Shown here: piece after piece, positions 1 to 46,450 of the stretch
Layout: each line of letters starts with the position of its first letter
How positions within the stretch are numbered: position 1 is the first letter of the stretch
From: Porphyrobacter sp. IPPAS B-1204
GTDB lineage: Bacteria > Pseudomonadota > Alphaproteobacteria > Sphingomonadales > Sphingomonadaceae
Direction of reading: 5' to 3'
Assembly: GCA_003724185.1 (NCBI GenBank)
Contig: RHGM01000003.1
Coordinates: 62,001-126,000 of the forward strand
Length of the DNA stretch: 64,000 nucleotides
Notes under the pieces: model-generated
Seen by the model: the letters and a program-made list of their open reading frames with translations, nothing else
What the model was told of the DNA's origin: nothing
Databases searched by the model: none
Position numbers and translations under genes: made by a program

Positions 1-3000
1 GAGCAGCCTTGGGGCATATCCGGCACCGCCCGACGCCTCATCGAACAGATAGATGGAGGGCACCCGGCGCCCCAACTGACCGTCCCTAGCAGCAACTGAG
101 ATTCCAAGTTCGCGCGGCTCAATACCTAGCCAACGCGCGAGGCTTTCGCGCAGCGCGGCCCCCGCTGCCCAGGCAGCACCATCGCTTTCAAGTCCTGGCA
201 ACTGGATCTCGACTACATCGGTCAGCAGTTGATGCCCTAGGGCCAAGGGGCGCGTAATCGCGTAGCCTTGGTCGTTACCCGGACAGCGATCGATGGCCTT
301 CCGGTCGCGCGGCGTCAGCGGCCAGTGATCCTTGAGCGCATCGGTGCCCGCTTCCCCCGCTCGTCCACACTCCAAGCAGATCTCGTAGCCCTTATCGTTT
401 GGCCCGCGCGAATGGTGGTAGATGTATCCATCGTGCGATGCGCGAATGCGTCCCGTTTCCGGCTGCAACAACGGCTGCCAAAAGACGTCCCCGACGCTGA
501 CTTTTGGTGACTTGGGTTCGATGTAAACAGCTTGATCGGTGTCAGCATGGGGCTGTGCGTTCCAGTCGACCCTAAAGCCAGCCGGCTCAAGGAACTGCTC
601 GGTCTTGACGTTCGGATCCCCGCAATGGCCGCAGCGTTCGGGCATCTTGTGATCGGAGCTGGCGCCGCCACATTGATCGCACCACCAGGCCCAACGCAAG
701 TTCTGAGGCTCGCGCTGGCCGCTATCGATCGGGCTCAACCAATTGAGGGATACGCCAGCCGACTTCCAAACAAGTCCATCGACCACAACCTCAGCGCCCG
801 GTGCATATTCTCGGATGGCAATGTCGGCGTTGCGGGTCGGGCATTCGTATCGCCGATTCCTCGTGCCTTCCTCGTCTGAGCGGTGGCGCTCTTGCGCCTT
901 TTGGGTCTCTGCGCACAGCGTATCGAAAGGCACAACGGCTGTGGGGAATCCACTTCCCGGGATCAACGAGCGATTTGCCAGCTCCTTCAGCAGGTATTCC
1001 TTGCACAGGCGCCGCGCTTGGAATTCGATCGCTTTCTTTGCAGGGCCATCGAGCGCATCGACATCGTCCTTCAATCGCTGCCAAGTCTGCCGAAAGCTTG
1101 CCGCGTCTTCCGCGAAGCTGACCGCTGTGTGCTCCCGGACCTCGCTGTCGAATGCGAGGCCCGTACCTTGCAATAGACGTTGAAGACCAGCTTCCGTCTT
1201 CTGTGCAGTGCTCGGCAGGCGAACCCATTCACAAAAAGCGTCCACAGGAGCCAGGCCCTCGAACGGTTGAAGATCGGCCCTGCATCCAAAGAAGTCGCCC
1301 GTCTTGGTGCGGGCGAACTCACCATCCACCTCTCGAAACCACTCCGCGAGCAAATAGGCATTCGCGTGACGCTGAGCGATTCGGTCCGAATCCATAGACA
1401 CCCGCGGTGAAGCAAGCTTGCGGGCTAGGTAGCTGGCCGGATCGGCGAAGGTTTCCAGATCGAGCGGGGTGTTGCGCGCAATTGTCAGGCTTGTCGAAAA
1501 GCCTTGGCCTCGTCTGCCCGCTCGACCGGCACGCTGATTGTAGTTAGCAATCGAGGGAGGAACATTGGTCATCATGACCGCCTCGATTGAGCCAATGTCG
1601 ACGCCCATCTCCATCGTCGTCGAACAAGCGAGGAGGTTGATATCGCCTTGCTTGAACTGTTCTTCGAAATCCCGCAGCCGGTGTGGAGGTTGCTGCGCGC
1701 TATGTTCTTCGGCGCGAAGATAAGGGGTCGCGAGCGCGGCCTGGTCGTGCCAGTTCATCCAGATGCCGCGCTCGCGCAGCTGCGATACCTCATCGCTTGT
1801 ATCAAGCCACGTTGCTATTCTTTGGCGCTCTTCCCCCGAGAATGGCCTCGTCGCGGGAAGGCGCGGGAACTCCACTTCGCTGACAGGCAGGCTTGCGAAA
1901 ACCTTCCCTGCGCTGACCAGATTAGCCGACCTACCAAAAACCAGTCGCGGCAAAACACGGCGGGTAAGCGGGCACAGCCAGGCCTTGGTCACCGCCTCGA
2001 CTTCGGCAGTCTTTTCGAGACGCAGGCTGTACGTTCCGCCAACTCCCGACAATAGCGGCTCAAGCTGACCCCATGCCACTCGCATGAGCTGGTTGATCTC
2101 GTGACAATCCCGTTGCGAGGAGAGATCCAGATTTAGGGCAGCGGCGAGCAGGAGAATGGAATCGGGCTGCCGCCCCTTCAAATTGACCGTTGGCCAAGAG
2201 ATGTCGCGCTTTACACCCGGTGGTTGATCGGGGCCGATCACATTGCGTGGGCGAGCGCGCCCTGGCATCCAGCGAGCATCGCCGTCGTCAACCTCAAGGG
2301 CGAACTGGCCGCGCAGGTAATCAACCATGTAATAGAGAAAATCGCGCCAATCCTGAATCGTGTAGCCCTTCTGGGCCACGACTTCGGGCAGCTTTTCCTG
2401 ACCAATTCTCTCGATGCTTGGGAAGCGGAGCCGCGCAAGTCCGAGCGTCTCCATTGCGTTAGCATTTCGCGGTCGGCGAGCGAGTTCGCGCAAAAGCATA
2501 AAGCGGGCGAGCGCCTCACGATTGTCATGAAAGCGCTCACTGCGATCCAGATCCCAGACTTTGGCCATCATCCCAATGGCGGGCTCCGCGGCGAGTGCTG
2601 AAACGAGGTCCTTCCACGGTACTCCTGCGGAGCCTCCACCACAGAGCTCAACGTCGATCTTTGCGATGTCGTCCTTGAAGGCTGGCATATCGGCCACAAG
2701 ACTCGCTAAAGCTGCCCTTTTACCGAGCAGCTCCTCTCTTCGTTCTGGGGTTATGTCATTGCCGTGGGCCGCCTTCTGGACCGCATGGTAGATGAAGCCG
2801 CGAACAAATCCGCGCTCGCCGTTGGTTTCGATGTTGGCGGCGAACCGGGCGGTGCCTTGTCGGCTGTCAGAGAAGCTGATCAGCTGACGGCCTTCAAAAG
2901 GCAGCGCATGTTCTGCCTCCTGCGGTGAGACGCCCTCCAACAGAATTGGCGCTGCATTCTGGGTCAGGAACGGGGTGCCAAAGCGGAAAGGCAGCATTGC

Positions 3001-4689
3001 AGGCCGCCCGTGGCGCTTGTTGCTGAGACAGGCAGGACAGCGCCCTTCGTTCAACTGCGTAATAGAAAACCGGCTCTCGCTGTCGTTCAATTCCCCGGTG
3101 GTGACTTCAAATCCGACAGGTGTCCCCTGTGCCTGCGCGTTGATAGTGATCAGACGCGAATGAGCGATGCCATCTGCTGGCCGCTCTTCTTCGTCGTCGT
3201 CCTCATGATCGCGATCGCGGTAACTGTTTTCGCGAAATTCGTCGGTGTCCTTGTCGCTCTGTCGCGGCACAATCCGGTCCCCGAGGTCGTCGGCAGGGAG
3301 AAAGGGCTCGCCACAATCGGGACAGCTCTGGATCTCGAACACAAGTGATTGGCAGTGAGGGCAATTGTCCCTCTGATCGAAAAGGATGGGACCGAATGGC
3401 CAGTCCTTTGGACGTGTGCCCCCCGTGCAGTCCTGGTTGATGCAAGTCCAAAGACCAGGAATGGCGCGCGTGAAGCTGTGCGCGCGCATTGGCAAAATTG
3501 GCCTCATTTCTTGGGCATTGTGCGCAGACAGGTCGAGAAGGATCTTTTCGGCGGACGCTGTCATGGAAGACAGCATGTTAATCGTCTGCGGCTTTTGCTC
3601 GAGCATCTCAGCCACCGCGCTGGCTGCCGGATCGTCCGACGCAGTCAGTACCTTCGAAAGATCGACCGGTTGCTGCTTACCGATCACCACATGTGTGCGA
3701 TCGAGGGGAACGCCGGCGATATCGGATAAGAAGCGCTGCAGCGAATCGACCGCCTCCGCGTCATCGGCCGACCCAATCGTTGCTGACGTCGCCACAAAGC
3801 GCACTTGATCGGGCGTCACATCAAACGCGTTCATGACGCGGCGCAGCAACAGTGAGAGCTCCGCAGCCGCAGAACCGATGTAGCTATGCGCTTCGTCGAT
3901 CACGATCCAGCGCAGCTTGCCGCGAGAGGCTTCGAGTATTGGACGATCCTCCCGCCGGATCGTCATGTATTCAAGCATCGTCTGGTTCGTGACGAGGATT
4001 GGTGGCGGGTTCGCGCGAAGGGTTTCGCGGTAGAGAACCTGATGCGGGATTTCGTGCTCGGCCTTGTCGCGGCTTGATTTCCGCGCCGTCCCCATCAGGC
4101 CATTGTAGAGAGCGAAGCGTACATCGCCCTTAAGCGGTTTCGTCCAGGCCGTGAGGCGCTTTTCCTGGCTCGCGATGAGCGCGTTGAGCGGATACAGCAG
4201 GAGCGCCCTCACACCGATCAGCTGGCTCTCTGCTTCAGATGCGCGGATCAAATCATCGAGCAGCGGAACGAGGAAGCACTCCGTCTTGCCAGAACCTGTT
4301 CCGCTGGAAACCAAAACGGATTGAGGGTCCAGACTGCCGAGCAGCTCCCAGGTTCTCAGCTGGTGGGCGTAGGCAGGGTAATCGAACCGCAACGCACTCT
4401 CGGGCGTTTGCGTGATTGCCTCAATCGTTCGGGGATGGAGCAGCTGGGTTAGTTCGGCAGGGCGTTTGCCTGATGAAACATAGCCGGGTGCCGCCTGAAA
4501 AAGCTGTTCTGACAGCAGGGCTCCGTTGGAAAGATCAGTGCCCGCGAGATTGTGCCGAAGGAAGGCATTAAGGCCCTCATGCCTAATGCCAGCCCGAGAC
4601 ACGACCGCCTCTGCTAGACCAGCCTGCAATCGCCGATGGACATCCATCGGCGACAGACGAGTAGGCTGGGAGACATGATCAGCGGTCAT
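1..4689 (-). CDS. druE: Druantia-type DEAD/DEAH helicase with DUF1998 domain, DruE-like (partial, C-terminus off window)
   Basis: This frame is open from ATG at 4689 to the window edge (1563 codons) and is missing from the ORF track only because its stop is outside. Motifs stay in one frame throughout. Walker A GTGSGKT is near residue 130, DEAH is near 265, helicase motif VI QRAGRAGRRGQ is near 1052, and several CxxC zinc-binding pairs follow (for example CLEC near 1438). A DUF1998 signature, LFDEASGGAGYA, is near 1550. The start overlaps the end of the upstream druH-like gene by 11 bases, so the two are translationally linked. DruE proteins are very large helicases of about 2000 residues and are required for Druantia anti-phage defence. 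An alternative is an unrelated MrfA-like helicase, but the partner gene and the Zorya neighbours favour Druantia type III. Confidence 0.75.
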   Translation of the reverse strand, partial: MTADHVSQPTRLSPMDVHRRLQAGLAEAVVSRAGIRHEGLNAFLRHNLAGTDLSNGALLSEQLFQAAPGYVSSGKRPAELTQLLHPRTIEAITQTPESALRFDYPAYAHQLRTWELLGSLDPQSVLVSSGTGSGKTECFLVPLLDDLIRASEAESQLIGVRALLLYPLNALIASQEKRLTAWTKPLKGDVRFALYNGLMGTARKSSRDKAEHEIPHQVLYRETLRANPPPILVTNQTMLEYMTIRREDRPILEASRGKLRWIVIDEAHSYIGSAAAELSLLLRRVMNAFDVTPDQVRFVATSATIGSADDAEAVDSLQRFLSDIAGVPLDRTHVVIGKQQPVDLSKVLTASDDPAASAVAEMLEQKPQTINMLSSMTASAEKILLDLSAHNAQEMRPILPMRAHSFTRAIPGLWTCINQDCTGGTRPKDWPFGPILFDQRDNCPHCQSLVFEIQSCPDCGEPFLPADDLGDRIVPRQSDKDTDEFRENSYRDRDHEDDDEEERPADGIAHSRLITINAQAQGTPVGFEVTTGELNDSESRFSITQLNEGRCPACLSNKRHGRPAMLPFRFGTPFLTQNAAPILLEGVSPQEAEHALPFEGRQLISFSDSRQGTARFAANIETNGERGFVRGFIYHAVQKAAHGNDITPERREELLGKRAALASLVADMPAFKDDIAKIDVELCGGGSAGVPWKDLVSALAAEPAIGMMAKVWDLDRSERFHDNREALARFMLLRELARRPRNANAMETLGLARLRFPSIERIGQEKLPEVVAQKGYTIQDWRDFLYYMVDYLRGQFALEVDDGDARWMPGRARPRNVIGPDQPPGVKRDISWPTVNLKGRQPDSILLLAAALNLDLSSQRDCHEINQLMRVAWGQLEPLLSGVGGTYSLRLEKTAEVEAVTKAWLCPLTRRVLPRLVFGRSANLVSAGKVFASLPVSEVEFPRLPATRPFSGEERQRIATWLDTSDEVSQLRERGIWMNWHDQAALATPYLRAEEHSAQQPPHRLRDFEEQFKQGDINLLACSTTMEMGVDIGSIEAVMMTNVPPSIANYNQRAGRAGRRGQGFSTSLTIARNTPLDLETFADPASYLARKLASPRVSMDSDRIAQRHANAYLLAEWFREVDGEFARTKTGDFFGCRADLQPFEGLAPVDAFCEWVRLPSTAQKTEAGLQRLLQGTGLAFDSEVREHTAVSFAEDAASFRQTWQRLKDDVDALDGPAKKAIEFQARRLCKEYLLKELANRSLIPGSGFPTAVVPFDTLCAETQKAQERHRSDEEGTRNRRYECPTRNADIAIREYAPGAEVVVDGLVWKSAGVSLNWLSPIDSGQREPQNLRWAWWCDQCGGASSDHKMPERCGHCGDPNVKTEQFLEPAGFRVDWNAQPHADTDQAVYIEPKSPKVSVGDVFWQPLLQPETGRIRASHDGYIYHHSRGPNDKGYEICLECGRAGEAGTDALKDHWPLTPRDRKAIDRCPGNDQGYAITRPLALGHQLLTDVVEIQLPGLESDGAAWAAGAALRESLARWLGIEPRELGISVAARDGQLGRRVPSIYLFDEASGGAGYAPRLL

Positions 4690-7600
4690 TCTTGAGCTCC
4701 GTGAGTGCGTAGCCATAGGCTTTTGCAAAGTATGCGGGATGACGTCGTTCGACGTCTTTCACCGTGAGAGTTTGAACCTTGTCGAGCGAGATGCGACCCA
4801 TTGCCGCCAGGGCTGCGGCAAATGGCGCGTCAAGAACCCGCATCAGGGATTCGAGGAAATTCTCCTGCGGAAGCAGGTCGCGAAAGACGGGGCGGAAAGG
4901 GTTGAAGCCAGCCGTGTCTGTGCTGATGCCCTCGCTGGTGTTTCCGGTGAAGTGACCGCGCACCTCCTCCCAGCTCGCCGGCGAAAACGTGCGACAAATG
5001 AGCGGTGCCAACTGCGGTGCACGCGCGGCAATTTCATTCTGTCGTTCTGTGATCTGCGTTATCGCCCATTGAGGGTCATCCAGCCGGCTCACAAGAAATT
5101 GCCCCTGAGCCTGGAACGCAGCATCCCATGCTTCGTGGGGCAGAAGGACCCAGCTTGAGCAAAGACCGTCGAACACTTCAAGAATGGTCGACAGGTGCTG
5201 CTCCTCACATCGATACAGTAGCAATGGGGCTAGTGCCCCGGCTTCCTCCAACTTACCGAATATTTCGAAAGTTTGAGGAGGTAGACCATTGAGCGACAAG
5301 GCTAGTTTCAAGACCGCCTGTATCGTTTGCTTGGCCTCAGTTGTGGTGGGATCGTGGGCAATTTCGCTGGCGAGTGCATTCAGATCCTCTCGAGCCAGAT
5401 CGAGCGGTTGAGCCATAGCACGTCCGAGCCGATGCTGCGGAATTGCATCGTCCGGGTCACCTGCGATAAACTTGGGTCGGGTAAGAACGCGAGAACCCTC
5501 ACGAAGGTAGACCAGCCAATCGCCCTTTAGGCGCGGCAAATGAATTACTTGCCCGCCAAGTCCGCTCAGCAGACCATCATACGGACCGAATTCGAGTTCT
5601 TTCTCCGGCGCCCCAAGGGCGCGCCCGCAGACTTTAGCATCTTGCCCGACTATCGCTGTTCTTGGCCGTAAACCGCCATTTGGCTCCCACTCGAGGGCAT
5701 TCCCAAACTCGGTCACATACCAGTAGTCGTTGCTCCCGTGGAAATTGAGTCGGACCTGAGCGTCTATGCCAAGCGGGCGCATAAGGGCTGCGATATCAGT
5801 TCTCAGCGCCGACAGCCCTAGTTCACCGTCGATCCGCCAACTTGCCTCTAACGCCGCACCGCTATGCTGGCGGACGTCTGCTAAGAGCGTCGACGTCGTA
5901 GGCACGCGCGCGACCGTGTCACGTAGATCTGCAAGTCCAAGGACCGCATCGCGAGGGAGAAGATCTCCGGCCCATGTTGTGATCCACTCCTTTGATCTAA
6001 CCGGGACTGTTAATTCGAAGGCGGGATCGAGCCCGAAAGCCAATCGCAAAATCAGCAAAGCTCGGCGCGGTGGGTCAGTTTTGATCCGCCAGCAGTGCCT
6101 CGAGCTAGGGATTTCTCCGGCGAGCGACGCCTCGCCGTCCCAACCATTCAGTTCAATCTCGGCAAAGTTCCCGTTGTTCTTCTGAGCTAGCTCAAAGCCA
6201 ACTGGCAGCACTAAGGCTGTCAGCCGATCGCGCACATGGCCTGTTGAGCTGTCGAGCCACGCAAATTCACACAAGCCTGGTCCAGCCGTGTCCAGATCGT
6301 CTAACCAGTCACGGCCACCTGCAATCCGCCAACGCACTTCGCCGCGAGCAGCGACGCGGCTTGAAACGCCCTCTGACACCATCGCATAAAGCGGGTGCCT
6401 GTACAGCGGCTCGCCATTTGGCGTTTGCAGACCGGAAACAGCATTGGCGATGACCGAGAGCCGATCCTTGCGATCGGCACTCTGGCCGGTGCGGATCAGG
6501 AAGCGGTCCCCATTTCTTTTTTGAGCGATTATGGCGCCTGCGCACTGATAGACGCAGCGCCCTTGTGCGAAGGTGAAGTCTTCGATCTCGATCTCTGTCG
6601 CCTCGTCCTTTCCTCGCAAAGACCAATCCTGAGGAGCATCTATGAAAACACGTTCCGCCCTGTAGCCGCCGGAGCCTTGACCAATAAGAGCAAAGCTCGC
6701 GTTTTGCCCTTCGGCACCACGTCGTTCGAACACACGAAGCCCATCGCCCACCGACTTACCGCCCGGCAGCACAAAGCTGCGAGTGAGTCGATCGCCGCGC
6801 GAATGAAATTCAGCTGTCACCGGAAGTTCGAAAGGGAACGCGATTGCACCTTCGCTCCGCATTGGCCTGACAATCCAATGGTTGCGGTCCTCGTGCTCGA
6901 GGTAGGCAAGCCTGCCGGATACTCTGTCAGCCAAGCCATCAGCCGGTTGGAGAAAAATGCGGCTGTAAGCGTCTGGTGATAGGATCTCATCTTTATCGTC
7001 CCATCGCCCATCCAAATGAAAGTCTAGGCATTCACGCCATCCATCTTCGTGTCGCGTCATCAAGCGCGTAATGCGAATGCTGCCGCTGCCAGAGAGCTTT
7101 TTCGCTTCCAGCAGCGTATCGATGAGTGCCGCCGCTGCTCCATCGAGTGTCATTGGCAGCACATCGCGCCAGTCCTCGTCGGCCTGGTCCAGACGCGCCG
7201 AGTAGGGGCGGTCGTCTGCAGGCACTTCCTTGTCAGCGAAGGCCCGCAACTCTACGATCTTGAGCGCCAGCTCGCCGCAGATCGCGTACATCTCTTGGCT
7301 GCGCCAGATTGGCGGGAGCAGGTATTCGTTTCGTTCGCATGTGACGACCGCACTACCGATGTCTTGCTCGTCAGAGCCCAGAAGCTCGCCGACAACCCGC
7401 TCGAGAAACTTCCTGGGCCAGCCAGCTCCACTTGCAATAGCGGCAGCAGGGAAACCGCCTTGACGAGCGAGATTAGCAAGGCGCTGATTGCTCTCGTCTG
7501 AAGCCCTGATTAGTGGAGCGATTTCCCAAAGAGCAAAGCCGCGGTCAGCAATGCGTGTCCATTCCGACCAGCTGAGATCCACTTTCAAGGCTGCGCCAAT

Positions 7601-7999
7601 GTCGTCCCACTTAGGCTTCCCGCCCTGATAAGAACGGCGAAACCAGTCCGCAGCCCAGAGAACAAATGCAGGAGCAAGCGCCGGATGTTGCACTTCGGAT
7701 TGCAAGCTCGACGACAACTTCTTCTCAATGCGCTCGAATGTTCCGGGCGCTAGCTTATATCGGTAGAGGGGCACGCTGCTCGGCCTCGGCAGGCCCAGAG
7801 CTTCGCTAGTTTTGCCAAGTGGGTGAGGACCCGCTTCGGCAGCTTTTGCGAGCTGGATCGCTCTGATCATCAGAATTTGCGGGCCACCCGCTTGGTGAAT
7901 CTCGGCGGCAATCTTGCGTAACTGAACGGAGTTTTTGCGCGCGGCTTCGATCTCGGCTTTGTAATCGCGTTCCTGGATCAACGAATTGCCCCCGCACAT
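4679..7999 (-). CDS. druH: Druantia type III DruH-like large protein of unknown fold
   Basis: An 1106-residue soluble protein with no signal peptide, no membrane segment and no catalytic motif that I can recognise. It lies directly upstream of the DUF1998 helicase and overlaps it by 11 bases, the two-gene layout described for Druantia type III (DruH plus DruE). The assignment rests on size and context, not on a recognised domain. The ATG at 7999 has no good ribosome-binding site. A TTG at 7981, just after a GGGGG stretch, is an equally plausible start giving 1100 residues. The gene starts 81 bases after zorD stops and is on the same strand, so it may belong to the same transcript. Confidence 0.6.
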   Translation of the reverse strand: MCGGNSLIQERDYKAEIEAARKNSVQLRKIAAEIHQAGGPQILMIRAIQLAKAAEAGPHPLGKTSEALGLPRPSSVPLYRYKLAPGTFERIEKKLSSSLQSEVQHPALAPAFVLWAADWFRRSYQGGKPKWDDIGAALKVDLSWSEWTRIADRGFALWEIAPLIRASDESNQRLANLARQGGFPAAAIASGAGWPRKFLERVVGELLGSDEQDIGSAVVTCERNEYLLPPIWRSQEMYAICGELALKIVELRAFADKEVPADDRPYSARLDQADEDWRDVLPMTLDGAAAALIDTLLEAKKLSGSGSIRITRLMTRHEDGWRECLDFHLDGRWDDKDEILSPDAYSRIFLQPADGLADRVSGRLAYLEHEDRNHWIVRPMRSEGAIAFPFELPVTAEFHSRGDRLTRSFVLPGGKSVGDGLRVFERRGAEGQNASFALIGQGSGGYRAERVFIDAPQDWSLRGKDEATEIEIEDFTFAQGRCVYQCAGAIIAQKRNGDRFLIRTGQSADRKDRLSVIANAVSGLQTPNGEPLYRHPLYAMVSEGVSSRVAARGEVRWRIAGGRDWLDDLDTAGPGLCEFAWLDSSTGHVRDRLTALVLPVGFELAQKNNGNFAEIELNGWDGEASLAGEIPSSRHCWRIKTDPPRRALLILRLAFGLDPAFELTVPVRSKEWITTWAGDLLPRDAVLGLADLRDTVARVPTTSTLLADVRQHSGAALEASWRIDGELGLSALRTDIAALMRPLGIDAQVRLNFHGSNDYWYVTEFGNALEWEPNGGLRPRTAIVGQDAKVCGRALGAPEKELEFGPYDGLLSGLGGQVIHLPRLKGDWLVYLREGSRVLTRPKFIAGDPDDAIPQHRLGRAMAQPLDLAREDLNALASEIAHDPTTTEAKQTIQAVLKLALSLNGLPPQTFEIFGKLEEAGALAPLLLYRCEEQHLSTILEVFDGLCSSWVLLPHEAWDAAFQAQGQFLVSRLDDPQWAITQITERQNEIAARAPQLAPLICRTFSPASWEEVRGHFTGNTSEGISTDTAGFNPFRPVFRDLLPQENFLESLMRVLDAPFAAALAAMGRISLDKVQTLTVKDVERRHPAYFAKAYGYALTELKNDR

Positions 8000-8080
8000 T
8001 CAGCGCTAACTGATGTCATTTACTCACTGTTTGCCGACTGATGACGCTTAAAGCTTTAGATTCAATGATAGAAGCCAGGT

Positions 8081-11000
8081 TCACGAGTTTACAGCGTAGG
8101 AGCGCGGCTGAGCATCATCGTAGAAAGCGTTGACCACGCACGACCACCTGGCGTTCATGATGCCATCGATCCCTCGCCCCAAATCCCAGATCACGCAGCC
8201 TCCGCTGGAGAGATGTGCCTTGACGTAGCGGTCGTGCAGATCACCTGCCGAACGGCGTGACTTTTGCACCAGGCGCAACGACACGGAAGCCATCACCCGT
8301 TCCCAGCGTTGCTCAAGGTCCTTTCGCTGATCGTTCGTGCCTTCGGGTTCTCGGGTTTGAACCGAATCCGCATCAAATGTCACGATATGGACAGATGTGA
8401 TTTCTGAGGCGAGCTGACTAAAGCGGCCTACGAAATTGATAAGGCGCCCGCGCGCTTGGCCATCGGCGCAGCAATACGGATCCTGGATTTCCAGCAGCGT
8501 GATATGCGCGTCACGGGCATATTGCTCAAAGATGGTCCAGTCTCGCTGACCATACTGCTCGAAGACCACTCGCTGGACGTAGGAGGCTCGCGCTTCTGCG
8601 GCTTCGATAGGAGATCGCACCGAGAGGATCGGGCGACCAACCGCCGGTCGGTCCATCCTTGCTGGCGAGAACCCCTCAGCCTCTTCGTCGGGTGGTGCGT
8701 CTTGACTAGCAACCGACGCTGGAGTTGCTGCCTCTGTGGGCGCGATCGGCAGAGCCTCGGCTGCCGATAAGTTGAGCCTTTCGGGCTTGATCTGCGCCTC
8801 GGAGGGAGCGGGGCTCTCACTGGAGTAAACGATCCCCTCCCCTGAGGGTGGGGAAGCCTTCTCGGCAGCAGTTGCAGAATGCGACTGATATTCAGCTCGC
8901 CTCCCGTCAAGCACGTCGGCAAGCAAGTCCTCGACATCTCGCTCGCTCTCGGGCGGCATGAGCAGGCCGCGGCTCAATGACCGCTTACGTTCCATCAGGG
9001 CATCGAGGCGCTGGTCGAAGCTCGACGGACCGATCGCCTCATCCGGATGAATGGCCATCGGGATGTGTATCGTGACCGGACGAGTCTGACCGATCCTGTA
9101 GGCGCGGTCAGTTGCTTGATCTTCCACCGCCGGATTCCACCAGCGTGAGAGGTGGATTACGTTATTGGCGGCGGTGATTGTGAGGCCAACACCGCCTGCT
9201 TTGGGGGACAGGATGAGAACATCGAAGGGAGACGGTGAGGTCTGAAATGCGTTCACCATCTCTTGCCGCTTGTGCCCGGCTACCTTGCCGCTGATGCACA
9301 TCGGCCTGTGGGGCAAGTCAAAGTGCTCCTGGATGGCCATGGCCAAGAAGGCCTGCATTTCCAGATCTTCGCAAAACAGCAGGACTTTTTCGCCGCGCTC
9401 TTTGATTTCAGCCAGAATCTCGAAGGTCTTGGTCAGGCGCGCGGACTGGGCGACATAGGCACTAATGTCGGTGACGCCCCGAGGCGCCAACGGATGGAGT
9501 GATGTCCCGCGCAACATGTGCAGTACTTTGAGCATCGCGCCTGGCTCGCCGCTTTCACGCAGCGCGCGAGCTCTTGCGAGCACGAGGTCATAGGCCTGAG
9601 CTTGGGCAGGCGGCATTTCGACCGCGTATCTGCGCGCGGTCTTTTCCGGCAGGCCGGTGAGGATTTCGTCCTTCATGCGCCTGAGCATGAAGGGAGGGAG
9701 CTCGTCGCCGCGCTCGACTAACCGCCGCTGAAGGTCTTCAAGGCGTCCCAGATCGTTGGCGGGATAGCTGCTTTCGAACTCCCGGCTTGAGCCGAGGAAG
9801 CCCGGATATACGGTGTCTGCGATCGACCAGAGATCCTGAAGCCGGTTCTCGACAGGTGTCCCGGTCATTGCAATTTGCAGGCGGCCATTAAGCGCTTTGG
9901 CTGCCCGAGTCATCTGACTGGCCGGGTTCTTGAGCTTCTGAATTTCGTCGTACACGATCGCGTCAAACGGAATGCGTGCGAAGCTCATGTGATAGTCGCG
10001 CATCGTCTCGTAGGTCGTGAGAACGATTCCTGCGTCTTCCCACGCGCTGGAATCCAGGCGGGATGTGCCGCCGCGGATATCGCTTCCAGCCTCCAGTCGA
10101 TAGCTGCGTAAATTTGTGCCGAACGCTTCGATCACGGGCCCGATGAGGCCGGCTTCCACGTGTTGTGCCAGTTCAGCCTGCCAGTTCCTCAGCAGTCCTG
10201 TCGGCGCAACGATTAGGACGGGTTTGGGGTGCGCCGAGTTGGATCGCAACCACAGCAGGAACATGAGTGCCTGGAATGTCTTGCCCAGTCCCATATCATC
10301 GGCGAGCAAGACGCCCGGCAACCGGCGTTCCCATGCTTCGGTCAACCAGGCAAACGCTTCGCACTGATGAGGCTTGGGCTCGGACTTCAGTCCTTTTGGA
10401 ATGGTTGGAACCCGAAATGGCTCTTGAGCGATTTGCGGCCGAGGCAATCTCGCATAATCGAGCTGCTCGAAGTTCTCCCCGACCTGGAGAAAGTAGGTTT
10501 CGACCGGTTCACGATCAGTTTCAGATTGGGATCGGCCACTTGTTTCTGCGGCAATCTCCCGCTCCAGATCGGCAATTCCGCGCGTTGCCTGGAGTGTTGC
10601 TGTGGTAGCGGGAATGCTCTCGTCGCGCCATGCGACGGTTTCATTCCCCGATTCGATGGCGGTTTCGATGTCGCCAACCAGTATTTCGGCGTCACCGGGA
10701 GCCAGTGCGATGTGCCGGGCATTGGGTGGATCACCGATCCGCAGGCCAAAGCTCTCAGGCAGCCAGCTGTTGGGCTTCGGCTTAATCCAGGGCAGGACTG
10801 GCTTTTGCCAGACCTCGATCCCGCTGACCCGCTCCGAGAACTGCTGCGTTTCTATGAACAGGCGGTCGGCCGCTTCGTCATCGCCGGTAGCATCGAGCTT
10901 CAGTTCTTCGCGCAAGACCCGCTGAGGTGAGCGCAGGAACTCCCGCTTTTCCTGCGAGCTTCCGGCCTGTTTTTTACGGACGACATCGAGCGCCTTACCC

Positions 11001-11839
11001 AGCAATGGGTCGAGGAAAAGTAGCGTTCCGTCTGAAAGGAGATAACTGCGCCGTCCTCCTTCCTGGCTCCGAAATCTGAGTTGGAAGTGCGCGTTGTCCT
11101 GGGGGGTCAGCAATGACGCTTCACGCTCATCAACGAGGTCGCCCTCGGAGGACTCCCCCACGTGTCGCGAGAAGAGCACGGGATCGAAGTCGAAGCGACC
11201 GTGATCGGTCTTCGCGTTCAACGAGAAGTTGGCAGCATAGGCTATGCGAATGCGTTCCAGAAAACCGTCGGCTTCGATCCCTGCGCCCAGTTTATCGCCA
11301 AGCAGTGCGCGGAGCTCTGCAAAGGCTGCTCTTCGCTCGTCGGGCTCAATTGCTAACTTTACGCCTTGTGCGGCTTGGAACACGGAAAACACTGGCTCAG
11401 GCACGCGGCTAACCCGCCCGCCTTCTCGGATACGAGCGCCAACGACATCGGCACGAACAGGCGCGCCGCCGCGACGGACCCACTTCGGATTGACTGTAAT
11501 GGTACCTTCTGCGAGCGATCCGCTCGAATTCAGCTGAAGGGTCAGCGGCGTGGCGGGTGGGAAGCCGAGCGCAAAGGCATCGGACTCGTCCAATTGTGCA
11601 GCGATATGAGGGGGAAGGACTATCTCTCCAGCCTCTTCGAGAATTTGTCCGTCTTGATCGAACGAGCGCGCGAGCGCCAACGCGGCCTGACCAGCCTCTG
11701 GAGCAAATCTCGGCCAATCGGCGACCGGCACAGCTTCGCTCGATGCTCGCTTGAAAAGCCCACCCGGCAGATCGCGCAAGAGCGTAATGGCCTCGCGGCC
11801 GTCGCTCTGCTGGGTCGCGATGAATTTGGTGCTTACCAT
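8081..11839 (-). CDS. zorD: Zorya type I ZorD, SNF2-family helicase with extra C-terminal MIT_C/PLD-like domain
   Basis: The ORF track begins at 11932, but the ATG at 11839 fits better: it overlaps the zorC stop by 7 bases and gives 1252 residues. The SNF2 ATPase shows Walker A DDMGLGKT, a DEIQ box (VYDEIQKLKNP) and the C-terminal helicase motif DQATDRAYRIGQT. ZorD is the effector helicase/nuclease proposed to act on phage DNA after the ZorAB motor senses envelope perturbation. The last 180 or so residues, after an acidic and proline-rich linker, contain EIQDPYC and LHDRYVKA...GRGIDGI, which resemble the phospholipase-D-like MIT_C domain. Described ZorD proteins are about 1080 residues, so this region is an addition. 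The helicase call is firm. The C-terminal domain is a pattern-based inference. Confidence 0.88.
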   Translation of the reverse strand: MVSTKFIATQQSDGREAITLLRDLPGGLFKRASSEAVPVADWPRFAPEAGQAALALARSFDQDGQILEEAGEIVLPPHIAAQLDESDAFALGFPPATPLTLQLNSSGSLAEGTITVNPKWVRRGGAPVRADVVGARIREGGRVSRVPEPVFSVFQAAQGVKLAIEPDERRAAFAELRALLGDKLGAGIEADGFLERIRIAYAANFSLNAKTDHGRFDFDPVLFSRHVGESSEGDLVDEREASLLTPQDNAHFQLRFRSQEGGRRSYLLSDGTLLFLDPLLGKALDVVRKKQAGSSQEKREFLRSPQRVLREELKLDATGDDEAADRLFIETQQFSERVSGIEVWQKPVLPWIKPKPNSWLPESFGLRIGDPPNARHIALAPGDAEILVGDIETAIESGNETVAWRDESIPATTATLQATRGIADLEREIAAETSGRSQSETDREPVETYFLQVGENFEQLDYARLPRPQIAQEPFRVPTIPKGLKSEPKPHQCEAFAWLTEAWERRLPGVLLADDMGLGKTFQALMFLLWLRSNSAHPKPVLIVAPTGLLRNWQAELAQHVEAGLIGPVIEAFGTNLRSYRLEAGSDIRGGTSRLDSSAWEDAGIVLTTYETMRDYHMSFARIPFDAIVYDEIQKLKNPASQMTRAAKALNGRLQIAMTGTPVENRLQDLWSIADTVYPGFLGSSREFESSYPANDLGRLEDLQRRLVERGDELPPFMLRRMKDEILTGLPEKTARRYAVEMPPAQAQAYDLVLARARALRESGEPGAMLKVLHMLRGTSLHPLAPRGVTDISAYVAQSARLTKTFEILAEIKERGEKVLLFCEDLEMQAFLAMAIQEHFDLPHRPMCISGKVAGHKRQEMVNAFQTSPSPFDVLILSPKAGGVGLTITAANNVIHLSRWWNPAVEDQATDRAYRIGQTRPVTIHIPMAIHPDEAIGPSSFDQRLDALMERKRSLSRGLLMPPESERDVEDLLADVLDGRRAEYQSHSATAAEKASPPSGEGIVYSSESPAPSEAQIKPERLNLSAAEALPIAPTEAATPASVASQDAPPDEEAEGFSPARMDRPAVGRPILSVRSPIEAAEARASYVQRVVFEQYGQRDWTIFEQYARDAHITLLEIQDPYCCADGQARGRLINFVGRFSQLASEITSVHIVTFDADSVQTREPEGTNDQRKDLEQRWERVMASVSLRLVQKSRRSAGDLHDRYVKAHLSSGGCVIWDLGRGIDGIMNARWSCVVNAFYDDAQPRSYAVNS

Positions 11840-13239
11840 CGATCGTTCCAATTGCGACCTCGGCCTTTCCCGAATGAGGGATGCAAGATTGACGTCCGAC
11901 GATGGATAATCCCGGCGAACTTTCCTTCCCACCCGGGGCTTGCTGGAACGTGAGCTTCGAATTCGAAGTCGGACCGGCCGGCTGTTGTCCTCAGGGCCAC
12001 GCCGTCGTAGGCTTTGGCGTAGAGCTTCGGTGCTTTCGGATCGCTATCGCTCCAGAACCGGCATGAGCCATTATCGCTCCACTCGGAAATTCTGAGATCG
12101 CCGATCTGCATTATGATCGAGGAAGACGAGGCGGGGCCGCCACTAATTATACCATACTCAGGGCGTTCGCCGCTCTGCCTGATCAGATCCTCGATCTGGT
12201 TGCGGGCCCGAACGCCTAGGGCTGGCCACGCGTCACTAACTAAGCCTGCGTCGACATAGGCCATCCAGAACTTTTCACGTTGCCCCCATTGATCGGGCCG
12301 ATCAGTTGTCTTGGCGATAGCCCGAAAGAATTCGCGCATTGCGACTTCTGTGAGCCAGCGCTTAAAAACCTGTGTGACTGTTAGTGCGCGTTCTTCACCA
12401 ATGCTTTCGGCCAGAGACCGAACAATCCTCTCCCAGCGTGGCCGCTGAAGGCGCGGGTCACCAACCTGGTCGAGCAGAAACCCGGAAATGGCCTTGCGAT
12501 GTCCGGGTTCGGGCTTCTCGTTGATCCAGGGTTCCAGCAAAGCACGCACGACTAGCTCAATCTGCCCTGCGAGCGCCTCTTGGTCAAAGAGCCGCAATAG
12601 GCTCCGCTGTGCCGAAACTGCCTTGTCAGGCGCCAACTCTGCTGTTGCAGTGCAAATTCGGGCGAAGGTTGCCTGGCCGAAGCCGCTCGCCGCCAGATTT
12701 GCTCCCAATCCGACGTCCCGCATCAACTGGAAGATCTCATCGTGATCGCGCGTGAGTAAAGCTTGAGCCACCTTTGCCGGCCCATGTGAGGGAGCAAATA
12801 GGTTCCAGTTTCGGGACCTCTCTCGCCATGCCCACTCGTGCCGCTGGGCAGCACTTGAGGCTGCCCCTGCAAGCTTCTCCATGATGGGCCGGCCGATAGG
12901 AAAATAGGTGAGATAACCATTGATCATGGCTTGATCGGAACTGCGCCGCGGGTCCTTGAGCGCCCGGTCGAGAGCAGATGACCCAAGCGTGTCGAATTCT
13001 GGATCGCACCATGCCCCGCGCAGAACCCGGTTGAGCTTGAAACGCGGAAGCGCCTCTGCACTCTTCTCGGCCGCGCTGCGCAGAAAGGGTCTCAACTCTA
13101 CAACGGGCTCTGCCTCGCCGATGCTTGCATCAAGTTTGGCAAGTTGCCGCTGCAGGTCAGGCTGCGTTACCGGGGGTTTCGCAAGCCCGGCAGAAGCGAG
13201 CGCGTCCATCCGGTCGATTGCTGCTCGCAGAAAGCTCAT
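11833..13239 (-). CDS. zorC: Zorya type I ZorC, EH-signature protein
   Basis: A 468-residue soluble protein between zorB and zorD. It carries a stretch like WGQREKFWMAYVDAG, which fits the EH_signature domain that defines ZorC of type I Zorya. It overlaps zorB by 4 bases upstream and zorD by 7 bases downstream, so all four genes are translationally coupled. ZorC is needed for type I defence, and with ZorD it forms the cytoplasmic effector side that responds to the ZorAB membrane motor. No catalytic residues are evident in the sequence. Identification rests on the domain-like stretch and on its fixed place in the operon. Confidence 0.87.
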   Translation of the reverse strand: MSFLRAAIDRMDALASAGLAKPPVTQPDLQRQLAKLDASIGEAEPVVELRPFLRSAAEKSAEALPRFKLNRVLRGAWCDPEFDTLGSSALDRALKDPRRSSDQAMINGYLTYFPIGRPIMEKLAGAASSAAQRHEWAWRERSRNWNLFAPSHGPAKVAQALLTRDHDEIFQLMRDVGLGANLAASGFGQATFARICTATAELAPDKAVSAQRSLLRLFDQEALAGQIELVVRALLEPWINEKPEPGHRKAISGFLLDQVGDPRLQRPRWERIVRSLAESIGEERALTVTQVFKRWLTEVAMREFFRAIAKTTDRPDQWGQREKFWMAYVDAGLVSDAWPALGVRARNQIEDLIRQSGERPEYGIISGGPASSSSIIMQIGDLRISEWSDNGSCRFWSDSDPKAPKLYAKAYDGVALRTTAGRSDFEFEAHVPASPGWEGKFAGIIHRRTSILHPSFGKGRGRNWNDRW

Positions 13240-13964
13240 GGCTTCTGCCTTAATACGTCTTTGTCCAACCCGGCACTGGGTGTGGTCATTAAAAACCGCA
13301 AATCGATCCGCCGATTACGCTTTTTTGCGGTTTCAGTATCACCTTGTGCGATAGGGCGATCCGGTCCGTAGCCGCTCAGACCCAAGATTGGTGCAGAGCC
13401 CGGCTCTCCAGCTGGCCTGTTGAGGAACTCTCGCAGGGCCGGTTGATTGAGCTGAAGCATGGTGAATGTTGTCTCGGCCCTTCGCACCGAAAGACCATAG
13501 TTGTTCATCCCTCCGTACATTGCGTCGGAATCAGTGTGTCCCTCAACAAAGACGGCGTCGATGAGGTGCTTGGAGCGCTCATCTTTGCAAAGGCTCGACG
13601 TAGTGTAGCAGGGCAGAACCTCTACCATCGCGCTGGCGACTTTGCTGATTGCGGTCTGGCCTAAGTAGTTCAACTCCCACCGGCCTTTGTCGAAGAGCAC
13701 GTCGTCTGGCAGACGCAGCACGCCAGTCTTCGTATCGATTTCCACCTGCAGACCCTTGTCCTTCAAGGACTGCTGAAGGTCGTTGAGAATTTCTGCGCGG
13801 GTTCGGTTTGCGCCCGTCAGCTCCTCAGTCTTCGACTGCAAATTCAGAGCGAAGTAAGCCAGTAGGATGATAAAGATGAGAAGGAGGCCTACCATCATGT
13901 CTGTCATCGACATGAAGTAGCTTTCTCCCTCTTCAGGAGGCCTTCTGCGAACGGTGCCTTCCAT
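13236..13964 (-). CDS. zorB: Zorya ZorB, MotB/OmpA-like peptidoglycan-binding stator subunit
   Basis: A 242-residue protein. A short cytoplasmic N-terminus is followed by one membrane helix (residues about 20-42, MTDMMVGLLLIFIILLAYFA) with an Asp in its first turn, the residue expected for ion flow in MotB-type stators. The C-terminal half is an OmpA-like peptidoglycan-binding domain (VEGHTDSDAMYGG, then GLSVRRAETT). ZorB forms a proton-driven motor with ZorA, anchored in the cell wall. The ATG overlaps the zorA stop in a TAATG arrangement, and the gene overlaps zorC by 4 bases. Confidence 0.92.
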   Translation of the reverse strand: MEGTVRRRPPEEGESYFMSMTDMMVGLLLIFIILLAYFALNLQSKTEELTGANRTRAEILNDLQQSLKDKGLQVEIDTKTGVLRLPDDVLFDKGRWELNYLGQTAISKVASAMVEVLPCYTTSSLCKDERSKHLIDAVFVEGHTDSDAMYGGMNNYGLSVRRAETTFTMLQLNQPALREFLNRPAGEPGSAPILGLSGYGPDRPIAQGDTETAKKRNRRIDLRFLMTTPSAGLDKDVLRQKP

Positions 13965-15889
13965 TATTCAGCTGCTTCCCTGTTCTGGTTCGCAAGAATT
14001 CCGGCTAGCTCCTCAACAGTGTCCCGCAGGTTTGTAAGCGGCTCAAGCGCACCGGCCAGCTGCGCAACTCCCTCGCCAAGGGCACGATCGACTTGGCCAA
14101 CGCGTTCATTAAGGTTCGTCGCGTGGCTGCCTGCCGCATCGGTGATCTTCTCAAGCGCGGCTCCGAGTGATCGATCGACTTCCTCGAATCTGGCTCGATA
14201 CTCAGACCAGGCAGAGGAGGCAGCGGCCGCAGTCTGGTTCAACGATACGGCGAGCTGCCGCATCTCTTCACGGGCACTTTCGGACGACTGCGCATTCTTC
14301 GTGACAACAGCTTCAACCGATTTCACGGCTTCGGCAATTGATACCGCAGACTGGCGGACTGGACCGGCCGCCGCTTCCACATCATTGGCAACAGTTCCGA
14401 ATGCTGTGGCCAGATCGTTCGAGCGAGCGGCGACCTGTTCGATGGCCCTTGCGTGATCGCCGATCGCAGTCTGAGCGGAAGATAGCCGATCAGCTGAAAC
14501 AGAAATTGCACTGCCGGCGTCCTTCATGCTCGTGACTAGCGGCGCGCCTGCTCCGTTAAAGCGTTCCACGAACTCCGCGAAGGACCTTTCCATTGCCTCC
14601 TGGCCAATGCGAGCAGCGTCATTTGCGGCGTTGCTCGATGCTTCGCCAAGTTGAGTGGCCGCCGCAGCCAGGCCTGCCTTCATGTCGTCAAGGGTGGAGC
14701 CAAGGCTGCTGAGGAGCTCATCCATGCGTTGGCGTGCCAGTGCGCTTGCCTGCTCGTTTTCCTCTCGCATGCGGTCGGCAACCACGCCAAAATTCCGGTT
14801 AAGCTCGCCGAACGCAGTGCGCATCTCTTCGGAGGCTTGGGAAAACCGGCGTACCGCCTCCTCAATTTGCCGGTCAGCCTCACCCGTCTGCTTCTCCAGT
14901 CGGTCTGACATCGTAGCCATGGACGCGGTCATCGCCCCGATGGCGTTCGCAAGGCCCGCCATTTCGGCGCCCGCGCTCGATGCGATTGCATCGCGGACGG
15001 CCTCGCCGCCGCCACCGCTGATCTTGTCGATGCCCTGCTGGATAGAACCCAGATGGGTGATCATTGGCGCCATCTGTTTCTCCAGCGCACCATCGAGTGC
15101 AGCCGCCAATTGCTCTGAGAAGGTCCTGAGAGCCGGAGTCTGCTCTTTCAGCTGCTCAAGCTGATCGCTCGCGATGCGCTGCGGTGGCAGATAGGCCATG
15201 CCATGCTCGAGCTTGTCGCAAAGCATGGAAAGACCGTCGTCAATGCGTTTGCCAAAACGATAGTCGTAAGAGCGCAGGACGATCGAAGCCACGATACCGC
15301 CGACCGAGGCCCAAAACTTAGCGCCCGCGACCTTCATGAGTTCATTAAGACGTTCCTGCATGACGTCGACACCGCCGCTGAAGTCGAGGGTCGACAGGGC
15401 TGCAATAATGCCAAGGAAAGTGATCAGCAATCCGACTGCAATAAAGATATTCGCAAACCAGTTTAATCCGCGATGGCGGTCTCCGAGGCTCACAAAGAAA
15501 TGTTCAGGCCTCGCTGAATTTTGCAAAACATCGGCCGACGGATCTACGATCGTCTCCCGATACTCTTCCCAGGTCCTGCGAAGTGGCATCGCCTCGGCGT
15601 GACTTGCATCCATCATCTGTGCATCGATGTCGTGGAAGCGCCTTGCAAAGCCTAGGCGCGCTTCATCGACATCGGTCATGCTGCCGCCAGTCACTTCGTC
15701 CAGCAGTCGGACACGCGCGTCAATCGCTTCCGCCAGCGGTGCGTGATACTTGCTTTGATATCTATACGATATTGCGAAAGCAGTTCCTATCAACACGATT
15801 GCCAGAAACGCAGCCATCGCATCACCGATAAGCGGTATCTCGGTGAAGAAATAAATCAGCCCCTGACCGAGCCATTCTGTAATTTCCAC
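13964..15889 (-). CDS. zorA: Zorya ZorA, MotA/TolQ/ExbB-like motor subunit with long coiled-coil tail
   Basis: Membrane helices lie near the N-terminus (DAMAAFLAIVLIGTAFAISY) and around residues 165-235 (IFIAVGLLITFLGIIAAL and FWASVGGIVASIVLRS), the MotA/ExbB arrangement. About 400 residues of Ala/Glu/Gln-rich coiled coil follow, the long cytoplasmic tail characteristic of ZorA. The ORF track starts at an ATG at 15928 with no ribosome site. I prefer the GTG at 15889, preceded by AAGGGGG about five bases upstream, giving 641 residues. ZorA and ZorB make the membrane motor that is thought to detect phage attack. This is the first gene of the zorABCD operon. Confidence 0.92.
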   Translation of the reverse strand: MEITEWLGQGLIYFFTEIPLIGDAMAAFLAIVLIGTAFAISYRYQSKYHAPLAEAIDARVRLLDEVTGGSMTDVDEARLGFARRFHDIDAQMMDASHAEAMPLRRTWEEYRETIVDPSADVLQNSARPEHFFVSLGDRHRGLNWFANIFIAVGLLITFLGIIAALSTLDFSGGVDVMQERLNELMKVAGAKFWASVGGIVASIVLRSYDYRFGKRIDDGLSMLCDKLEHGMAYLPPQRIASDQLEQLKEQTPALRTFSEQLAAALDGALEKQMAPMITHLGSIQQGIDKISGGGGEAVRDAIASSAGAEMAGLANAIGAMTASMATMSDRLEKQTGEADRQIEEAVRRFSQASEEMRTAFGELNRNFGVVADRMREENEQASALARQRMDELLSSLGSTLDDMKAGLAAAATQLGEASSNAANDAARIGQEAMERSFAEFVERFNGAGAPLVTSMKDAGSAISVSADRLSSAQTAIGDHARAIEQVAARSNDLATAFGTVANDVEAAAGPVRQSAVSIAEAVKSVEAVVTKNAQSSESAREEMRQLAVSLNQTAAAASSAWSEYRARFEEVDRSLGAALEKITDAAGSHATNLNERVGQVDRALGEGVAQLAGALEPLTNLRDTVEELAGILANQNREAAE

Positions 15890-16114
15890 GGAGCCCCCTT
15901 GAACACATCGAGTGATTTGGAGCTCCAAGTAAACGGTGCGCAGGTAAGGCGAGCTTACGAGGTGCGGCCGAGGAAGGAGCTCGAGGTCTCTAGTGGTATC
16001 GAACCGTGCAGCTTACGCCAAGTCACGATGCGACGAGCAACCCTCAAATTCCCAGAATAACTCAATTTTCTCGAAAGGACTCTCCTTGCTGGCAAGCACC
16101 CTTGCGAGGCTCCA

Positions 16115-31901: not shown

Positions 31902-32083
31902 TGACTTTCTCCTTCAAATCCCGCCGGACCATCCGACAAACAGAGACATAGGCGCCAACAGGCCGTCAGAGTTCAGGCGCAGATTTGCGCCTTGCTCGCC
32001 TCGACCGCGGGAAAGCTTGCCAAACACTCAAATTGTGGTGCAAAAACAGAAATGAAGAACATTCATCTGGGAGAGGCGCAACA

Positions 32084-33307
32084 ATGCCAACCCGCAACCT
32101 TCCTTCCGGTGAGAAGGTCTTGCTCTTAACGTTGGGATCAACTCCCCAGGTTGTTACCGAAACGATTTATGCCCTAGCAAAGGGCGAGCCTGCGTGGATC
32201 CCAGATCGCATTATTTTGGCAACCACTGACTATGGGCAAAGGCTCTTCAATGAAGGCCGGCCGGCAGGCGACCGAAACCCCATCGCCCCGCTTTTGGGTT
32301 CTGACGGAATGCTTGCGCGGATGATAGCTGCTTGCAATTTTCCCATTTCACTTGACCAGGTCGAGGTGGTCGTGCCGCGCTGCCAAAACGGCGTCCCAAT
32401 CATCGATATTCGCGATGCTGAGGAGACCCTGGCTTTTGCCGAGGCACTCCTCGCGATCGTATCTGAAGTCACTTCAGATCCCGCCAGTCAATTGCATGTC
32501 TCGCTGGCTGGAGGCCGCAAGACAATGAGCTTTGTTGCTGGCCAAGTCTTATCAATCCTGGGGCGCCAGCATGATCACCTGTCTCACGTGCTGATCGAGC
32601 CACGTGAACTGGAATGGCAAGACAGTTTCTGGTGGCCGGATGACAGTTCTGCTGGCAGCGATGGTGCAAAGATCAATTTGTGTATCGTGCCTTATTTGCG
32701 GGCGCGAGCATGGCTCGACCCCGCACAGGTTGTGCAGGTCAGTCCCGGTTATTCGAAGGCTGTGGAGATCGCTAACCAATCGTTGGGCCATGTTCCAGTG
32801 ACACTTGACCTTGTTGCAGGACACCTTGAGGTGTGCGGCGTCCAGATTGAATTGGGCGCGCAGCAATTGGCAACCTTGGCGCTGATTTTCATCGCCACCA
32901 AACGTGGTTTGCCACTCACAACCACAACGGATTGGCGGTCCGATGACCGCAAGGCTAGGGCTTTCAAATTGGGCGAAGACATTGATGGGGCCAACCAGTT
33001 GTGGGGCTTTTTCTATCATTGCTGCATCCTCGGCCAAATTTATGAGGGCGGCCCGGTGGTGCATTTTGGACCATTCGATTCAGCGCTGACGCGCTATCTT
33101 GACGATTTCTCATACAATGACCGGGTTGCATCGCCGTTGTCGCGGATGCGGCAGGAACTAAGCGAGGAATTGCCGCCAGCGTTGGCAGAAAAGATTATCA
33201 CGCCGCGTGGCCTAGCTACGCTAATCGAACCGGCGGACATTACCATTCTTGGCCCGGCAGATCTTGCAGACCACGAGATGTGGCCGATTGAGCTTGATCA
33301 CTGCTAG
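32084..33307 (+). CDS. CARF-domain protein of the CRISPR-associated ring nuclease / Csm6-like (TIGR02584, NE0113) family
   Basis: The start is ATG 32084 (MPTRNLPSGEKVLLLTLGST) after GGGAGAGG, giving 407 residues. The N-terminal half is a CARF domain with the family signatures LLTLGSTPQVVTETIYAL and HVSLAGGRKTMS. CARF domains bind cyclic oligoadenylates made by type III CRISPR complexes, and ring-nuclease members degrade them. The C-terminal half has a winged-helix-like part and no HEPN RNase motif (RxxxxH) that I can see. No cas genes and no CRISPR array occur in the window, so it is an orphan. It may blunt a host's type III CRISPR signalling during element entry, or serve as a sensor for the neighbouring genes. 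Confidence 0.82.
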   Translation: MPTRNLPSGEKVLLLTLGSTPQVVTETIYALAKGEPAWIPDRIILATTDYGQRLFNEGRPAGDRNPIAPLLGSDGMLARMIAACNFPISLDQVEVVVPRCQNGVPIIDIRDAEETLAFAEALLAIVSEVTSDPASQLHVSLAGGRKTMSFVAGQVLSILGRQHDHLSHVLIEPRELEWQDSFWWPDDSSAGSDGAKINLCIVPYLRARAWLDPAQVVQVSPGYSKAVEIANQSLGHVPVTLDLVAGHLEVCGVQIELGAQQLATLALIFIATKRGLPLTTTTDWRSDDRKARAFKLGEDIDGANQLWGFFYHCCILGQIYEGGPVVHFGPFDSALTRYLDDFSYNDRVASPLSRMRQELSEELPPALAEKIITPRGLATLIEPADITILGPADLADHEMWPIELDHC

Positions 33308-33661: not shown

Positions 33662-34067
33662 GACATTTCTCCACTCGTGACGTTATCTTCGGATCAACCT
33701 GAACCGGCACAAAATCACGTCACCCCAATGATGCGCCACCCATCATCAGACCTGCATCTCGAAAATCACAGCGATAACCTGACCCAAAAATCTACCGCGA
33801 CGATGACGTAGTTCTCTGGCCAGCAACTGCTTGCTAGCAAAGACTCAATCACATGCTGGGTTCTACTCGCTTCGCCGATAAATCGCTGGCGGCGCAAATT
33901 TGCGTCATCATCAAAGGTGCCAAATTCTGCCTAAACCCAGTCTATCCCGATGTTTCGGATGTCAGGGTCAGTTGAAGCCAGGATCGGCGATATCCGCCCT
34001 ACCAAGGGATAATCGATTTGGCGCTGGGCCGGATCTAGAAAATGGTCGACGTGGAGGGGCCGGAAGG
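33662..34067. other. 406-base intergenic region
   Basis: It contains the divergent promoter area for the repeat-protein gene and the membrane-protein gene. I see no further gene, terminator or clear operator. Confidence 0.4.
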
Positions 34068-35879: not shown

Positions 35880-36049
35880 CAACCCGAGCGGGCGTGTGTC
35901 AGACATTCAGCGCGCTAACCACACTACCATTGTTGTGGTGTATTCCTGACCGCCAAGGGGCTGTTCTTTTCATCCTTCCTCGCGCAACTCGCAAATAAAC
36001 TCCTCTTTCGCAAAGCTTATTCCGTTACGCAGGTAATTCAGGATTGATC

Positions 36050-46364: not shown

Positions 46365-46450
46365 TGGTGGACAGGGCTGGATTCGAACCAGCGTACGCTT
46401 GCGCGGGCAGATTTACAGTCTGCTGCCTTTAACCACTCGGCCACCTGTCC
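46365..46450 (-). tRNA. tRNA-Tyr (anticodon GTA), integration target
   Basis: A class II tRNA of 86 bases: 5' GGACAGG pairs with CCTGTCC near the 3' end, the anticodon loop reads CTGTAAA, there is a long variable arm, and CCA is encoded. The 3' end faces the element, so the attachment core should lie in the T-arm/acceptor half. The gene is intact, restored by the element's copy of its 3' end if a duplication occurred. Confidence 0.95.

Follow-up and report, generated by a model that had tools for sequence, protein, structure and literature searches.

A PLD/MIT_C-like C-terminal domain in the slot of the Mrr nuclease on a type I Zorya ZorD helicase from Porphyrobacter sp. IPPAS B-1204

The type I Zorya helicase ZorD of Porphyrobacter sp. 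IPPAS B-1204, encoded in the 64,000-nucleotide stretch of DNA analysed here (contig RHGM01000003.1, positions 62,001 to 126,000; the window), ends in a separate, conserved domain that, on the evidence of a structural model, is a divergent single-motif (HxR) module with the phospholipase D (PLD)/MIT_C-like fold. This tail arose once among ZorDs, and lies in a slot that in many other ZorDs is filled by an unrelated nuclease, Mrr. We consider that it probably acts as a DNA phosphodiesterase that would cut phage DNA, at a probability of roughly 0.6. The gene and the parts of its C-terminal region are as follows.

8081..11839, minus strand: zorD, SNF2-family helicase of type I Zorya (PADLOC ZorD1, 1878.8 bits; SNF2-rel_dom, 164 bits; Helicase_C, 52 bits)
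9089..10369, minus strand: SNF2/helicase core, residues 522-948 of the 1283-codon open reading frame (Pfam PF00176 and PF00271)
8636..8953, minus strand: linker, low-complexity and fast-evolving, approximately residues 994-1099 (alignment; dN/dS 0.48)
8081..8635, minus strand: predicted MIT_C/PLD-like C-terminal domain, residues 1100-1283 (homologues, 12 close and 2 distant; AlphaFold2; Foldseek)
8474..8482, minus strand: DPY motif at the end of domain strand 1 (unchanged in every ZorD tail and in the DruE-like protein of locus L069)
8228..8236, minus strand: HDR (HxR) motif opening strand 4, the predicted counterpart of the HxK of PLD enzymes (invariant; position in the model)
8165..8179, minus strand: GRGID motif, following strand 5 (GRG almost invariant, final D variable)

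The open reading frame (8081-11932, minus strand, 1283 codons) is open to a GTG at 11932. Because the match to the PADLOC ZorD1 model (PDLC00634; 1878.8 bits, residues 32-1271) begins at residue 32, translation probably starts at the ATG at 11839, giving a protein of 1252 amino acids. In the alignment of homologues, the post-helicase region consists of a variable linker followed by a conserved domain from residue 1100. Close homologues of the tail occur at 12 sphingomonad loci (73-80% identity) and distant ones in two other Alphaproteobacteria (L017 and L018; about 30% identity), all of them in Zorya operons. Even in ZorDs as distant as 22-30% identity, DPY, HDR, and G155 do not vary and GRG hardly does, and a basic patch (KSRR, RRPRRNR, or RRRKR) immediately precedes HDR in every ZorD tail. 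The helicase and the tail domain have almost the same ratio of nonsynonymous to synonymous substitution rates (dN/dS 0.054 and 0.056, respectively), against 0.48 in the linker. Synonymous sites are saturated, but the raw ratio of nonsynonymous to synonymous differences (pN/pS) has the same pattern (helicase 0.15, linker 0.76, tail domain 0.15). The tail domain is under purifying selection equal to that on the helicase, and the ZorD C-terminus is best explained as a separate, functional domain. A frameshifted or spurious extension was rejected in view of the purifying selection and the 12 close homologues. The PLD tail is rare, as it is carried by 3 of 399 Pseudomonadota species; a tblastn search of plasmids with the tail domain and its relatives from L017 and L051 gave no match, and no relative of the domain was present in the viral contigs searched.

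The AlphaFold2 (AF2) model of the tail domain, built from 12 sequences, has the element order H-E-H-E-H-E-E-E-E (mean predicted local distance difference test score [pLDDT] 58.8; predicted template modelling score [pTM] 0.60). In a Foldseek search of 350,542 PDB chains, human MITD1 (2ymb_D), the MIT_C protein of known structure, ranked first (E 3.6e-6, probability 1.00) and was the only match below E 0.001, followed by yeast Tdp1 and a Streptomyces PLD (E 0.008-0.1). The original prediction had placed the C-terminus close to MIT_C and PLD by the motifs EIQDPYC, LHDRYVKA, and GRGIDGI, all of which are present on the minus strand at the positions listed above. Its proposal is borne out by the fold, with MITD1 first and then Tdp1 and PLD, but Pfam MIT_C (PF16565; threshold 25 bits) itself has no match to the window ZorD up to E 10, and the domain is therefore best termed MIT_C-like rather than a member of that family. 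The MIT_C signature DPY...HDR...GRGLD is reproduced in the tails, with GRG nearly invariant and the final D not conserved among them. A profile built from the MIT_C of BrxL and MITD1 scored 12.1 bits against the window domain, a value reached by none of 2000 shuffles, and only about 1 bit against the distant tails of L017 and L018; a profile-profile comparison of the ZorD tail and BrxL MIT_C gave a weak match with their motifs in register (probability 3.4, E 0.013) and failed with other settings. Because profile depth is too low, the case for MIT_C depends on the modelled fold, so that the MIT_C/PLD reading is drawn from fold and motif order and not from a family threshold. Searches of Pfam, NCBIfam, and PDB sequences with the tail domain alone gave nothing usable (NCBIfam VPA1262, E 0.12). 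Matches of about 20 bits to PF16565 in other proteins were set aside as unrelated.

In many other type I ZorDs the post-helicase slot is occupied by Mrr_cat (38-75 bits), a domain that the Pfam scan did not find in the window ZorD, and ZorD has been described as a helicase with an Mrr-like nuclease (PMC11890865). Other ZorDs have no tail and end 19-24 residues past the helicase, as in Azospirillum (L055), Klebsiella (L058), Polymorphobacter (L059), and Pseudomonas (L062). On a tree of 40 ZorDs, calculated with the tails left out, PLD-tail ZorDs fall into a single clade of 11 rows (support 100, one change) and the Mrr and no-tail types are scattered, with zorC-like genes adjoining ZorDs of all tail types. 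The PLD tail arose once on this tree, and tails of PLD type and Mrr have been exchanged in ZorD. The C-terminus had earlier been regarded as a fused extra domain on a protein about 170 residues longer than described ZorDs. It is indeed absent from standard ZorDs and forms a separate domain, but "exchanged" is a better description than "extra" because other ZorDs hold the Mrr nuclease at the same place. The difference in length applies to E. coli ZorD (PDB 8qy7, 1080 amino acids) and not to type I ZorDs generally, many of which have 1111-1290 amino acids owing to the Mrr domain in that slot. Being strongly conserved and situated in the slot of the DNA-cutting Mrr, the tail most likely represents a DNA-processing tool that has been exchanged, not decoration. 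The window ZorD scores 372 bits against the E. coli-type ZorD equivalog (NCBIfam NF041790; cut-off 1500 bits), and profile matches assign it to a separate ZorD subfamily with its own PADLOC model. That model, PDLC00634, is annotated "Mrr-like nuclease", which is wrong for the PLD/MIT_C-like C-terminus of the window match.

The same fold terminates proteins of other defence systems. The tail domain also stands at the end of a DruE-like helicase of 2084 amino acids whose gene adjoins a BREX operon (L069): positions 1046-1204 of the PADLOC ZorD1 profile match residues 1885-2054 of this helicase (E 1e-5), and hhalign aligned the ZorD tail with its C-terminus (probability 83, E 1e-6). The terminal domain of the Druantia III helicase DruE was modelled with the same element order as the ZorD tail (pLDDT 70.6) and likewise has MITD1 as its first structural match; hhalign of the ZorD and DruE tails gave no detectable profile similarity (E 0.77). 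DruE is reported to contain one inactive and one active PLD domain, the terminal one being described as active, and to cut DNA (PMC13192584, preprint). The C-termini of BrxL have been called HKD-endoDNases in which K is replaced by R, proposed to be still active, and found in 1030 of 2913 type-1 BREX taxa (PMC12839542); we infer that this HKD domain is Pfam MIT_C, because both are C-terminal on BrxL and both show H-x-R.

For the tail as a DNA phosphodiesterase, the following mechanism is proposed. ZorAB would sense membrane perturbation at phage DNA injection and recruit ZorC and ZorD, as described in the literature for other Zorya systems, and the ZorD helicase would bind and translocate on the incoming phage DNA. 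Held on its flexible linker, the tail would attack the DNA backbone, its histidine serving as the nucleophile while the arginine holds the phosphate, and two tails would probably complete one active site, like single-motif PLD nucleases. Nuc, BfiI, and Zucchini have one motif per chain and work as dimers. We infer DNA as the substrate, its cleavage, and the dimeric active site; catalysis is favoured by the Mrr nuclease in the shared slot, the invariant H and R, the basic patch before HDR, and the relatives called active. Type I Zorya has been reported to degrade phage DNA via ZorC and ZorD after activation of ZorAB (reviews).

Several points weigh against this interpretation. Confidence in the AF2 model is low, and its superposition on MITD1 is loose (template modelling [TM] score 0.48, root-mean-square deviation 7.7). 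The HKD motif HxK(x)4D(x)6GSxN does not occur in the tail: HxK has become HxR, the position seven residues after H is H, R, K, Q, E, or A with no conserved aspartate, and GRG stands in place of GS with no GSxN. Tdp1, too, is without the HKD aspartate. MITD1 has the same HDR...GRGLD residues, and membrane binding is the activity reported for its PLD fold (Hadders 2012, as cited in PMC9477494), which shows the signature to be compatible with binding only. Finally, ZorD of the E. coli/Klebsiella type has no tail, yet degradation of phage DNA by type I Zorya has been reported even so. Because K is replaced by R and the HKD aspartate is not conserved, a role in binding only retains some weight: the tail could be a PLD/MIT_C fold that has lost catalysis and serves as a targeting or assembly module, by binding DNA ends or by bridging ZorD protomers (or ZorC/ZorA). 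This alternative would fit the loss of the HKD residues, the known binding rather than catalytic role of MITD1, and the pairing of an inactive with an active PLD in DruE, the C-terminal region of which mediates oligomerisation (PMC13192584). We nevertheless consider it unlikely, as neither H nor R varies in any of the ZorD clades or in the DruE-like protein, sister ZorDs hold a nuclease in that slot, and BrxL with the same K-to-R change has been proposed to retain activity (PMC12839542).

The genes surrounding zorD comprise the remainder of the Zorya operon and a Druantia III system.

13964..15928, minus strand: zorA, MotA-like with a long tail (PADLOC ZorA1, 1162 bits)
13236..13964, minus strand: zorB, MotB-like (PADLOC ZorB1, 271 bits)
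11833..13239, minus strand: zorC, EH_Signature (PADLOC ZorC1, 755 bits; Pfam EH_Signature, 134 bits)
4679..7999, minus strand: druH, YjiT/STY4851 family, Druantia III sensor gene (PADLOC DruH3, 2078 bits; NCBIfam NF038336 above cut-off)
1..4728, minus strand: druE, YprA-like helicase, running out of the window (tblastn to the DruE of L012, 86% identity)

By their profile matches, zorA, zorB, and zorC lie upstream of zorD on the same strand (11833-15928), and the window carries a complete type I Zorya operon, zorA-B-C-D. The gene druH lies 81 bases downstream of zorD, and Druantia III (druH, druE) directly follows Zorya I in the window, as it does in 11 of the 12 sphingomonad relatives (L005-L014, L016), two of which (L013 and L014) have an additional gene of 284 or 325 amino acids between zorD and druH with no PADLOC match. 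The C-terminal PLD domain of DruE is encoded in the flanking DNA (L019), and just beyond druE the same genome encodes a BrxL whose MIT_C is a true one (137-141 bits). The tails of DruE, BrxL, and ZorD thus give three adjacent defence systems each with a protein ending in this fold.

This arrangement raises the question of whether the tail couples Zorya I to the DruE/DruH of the adjacent Druantia III, similar to the role proposed for the ZorE tail in Zorya II, in which 90% of Druantia-associated ZorE have an extra C-terminal nuclease-like region (PMC13192584, preprint). Such coupling is improbable: the tail occurs without Druantia at L015, L017, and L018, from which it follows that the tail domain is older than the Zorya-Druantia pairing; the association in close relatives may stem from one ancestor; and no stable Zorya-Druantia contacts were seen (PMC13192584, preprint). 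Least probable of all is that the tail tethers ZorD to the inner membrane beside ZorAB, which would suit the action of Zorya at the membrane and the reported membrane binding of MITD1, the closest solved fold (Hadders 2012, as cited in PMC9477494), but not the Mrr in the same slot elsewhere, the charge of the domain (23 K+R vs. 24 D+E; not basic overall), or the placement of the BrxL and DruE relatives on DNA-acting proteins.

If the tail does cut DNA, Zorya joins BREX (BrxL) and Druantia (DruE) as a user of an MIT_C/PLD-type DNase, and the exchange of nuclease modules on a conserved motor acting on phage DNA could be tested directly via mutation of a single histidine. Tentatively, and with more doubt than confidence, we suggest that ZorD is a modular chassis in which the C-terminal effector is swapped between unrelated nuclease folds, that its tail founds a PLD/MIT_C-like HxR DNase family common to ZorD, DruE, and BrxL, and that the ZorD form has been kept with Druantia III in sphingomonads so that both act on the same phage DNA. 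A literature search, which did not include the primary Zorya structure paper, found no description of a PLD or MIT_C tail on ZorD.

Further defence and mobility genes were observed in the neighbourhood. In the same genome, just before the window (L019; C8:48000-66000), BREX type 1 genes adjoin druE (BrxL called by Pfam; PglX, PglZ, and BrxC by appearance), and BREX, Druantia III, and Zorya I therefore form one defence island. Positions 17543-46450 of the window encode a TrwC relaxase, a TrwB coupling protein, an ArdC-like antirestriction protein, and ParB, with a gene for a tyrosine integrase (44956-46167) adjacent to tRNA-Tyr (46365-46450); the defence island is probably carried on an integrative conjugative element. 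A CARF-family protein (31985-33307, plus strand; Cas_NE0113/Csx1-like; Pfam 84 bits, PADLOC CARF5 182 bits) is encoded beside two large genes without known function (33900-37324). Beside the PLD-tailed Zorya of L017 lies a Hachiman-like pair (4181-8183, minus strand), consisting of a HamB-like helicase (96 bits) and a 290-amino-acid gene with no PADLOC match.

Compared with known systems, the window ZorD shares its SNF2 core with E. coli ZorD (8qy7; 311 bits over window residues 360-993), which has no tail domain and aligns only to window residue 993; Klebsiella ZorD, of the same type as that of E. coli, ends about 22 residues past the helicase. ZorDs with an Mrr nuclease have the same protein, operon, and post-helicase slot, but their Mrr_cat fold is unrelated to the PLD/MIT_C-like tail. 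The MIT_C of MITD1 and BrxL is a PLD half-fold with DPY...HxR...xRGL in the same order as in the window tail; it is linked to an MIT domain or the BrxL ATPase, rather than to a Zorya SNF2 helicase, and is recognised by Pfam, unlike the window tail; the D of GRGLD is not conserved among the ZorD tails. A further parallel to the ZorD tail is the additional nuclease-like tail reported on ZorE proteins that occur with Druantia. In DruE, which differs from ZorD in having two PLD domains and in its motifs (DRY/HGR/QG vs. DPY/HDR/GRG), a PLD domain likewise terminates a defence helicase, and the DxY-HxR-xxG spacings of this C-terminal domain (PLDa), 82 and 19 residues, are identical to those of the window domain.
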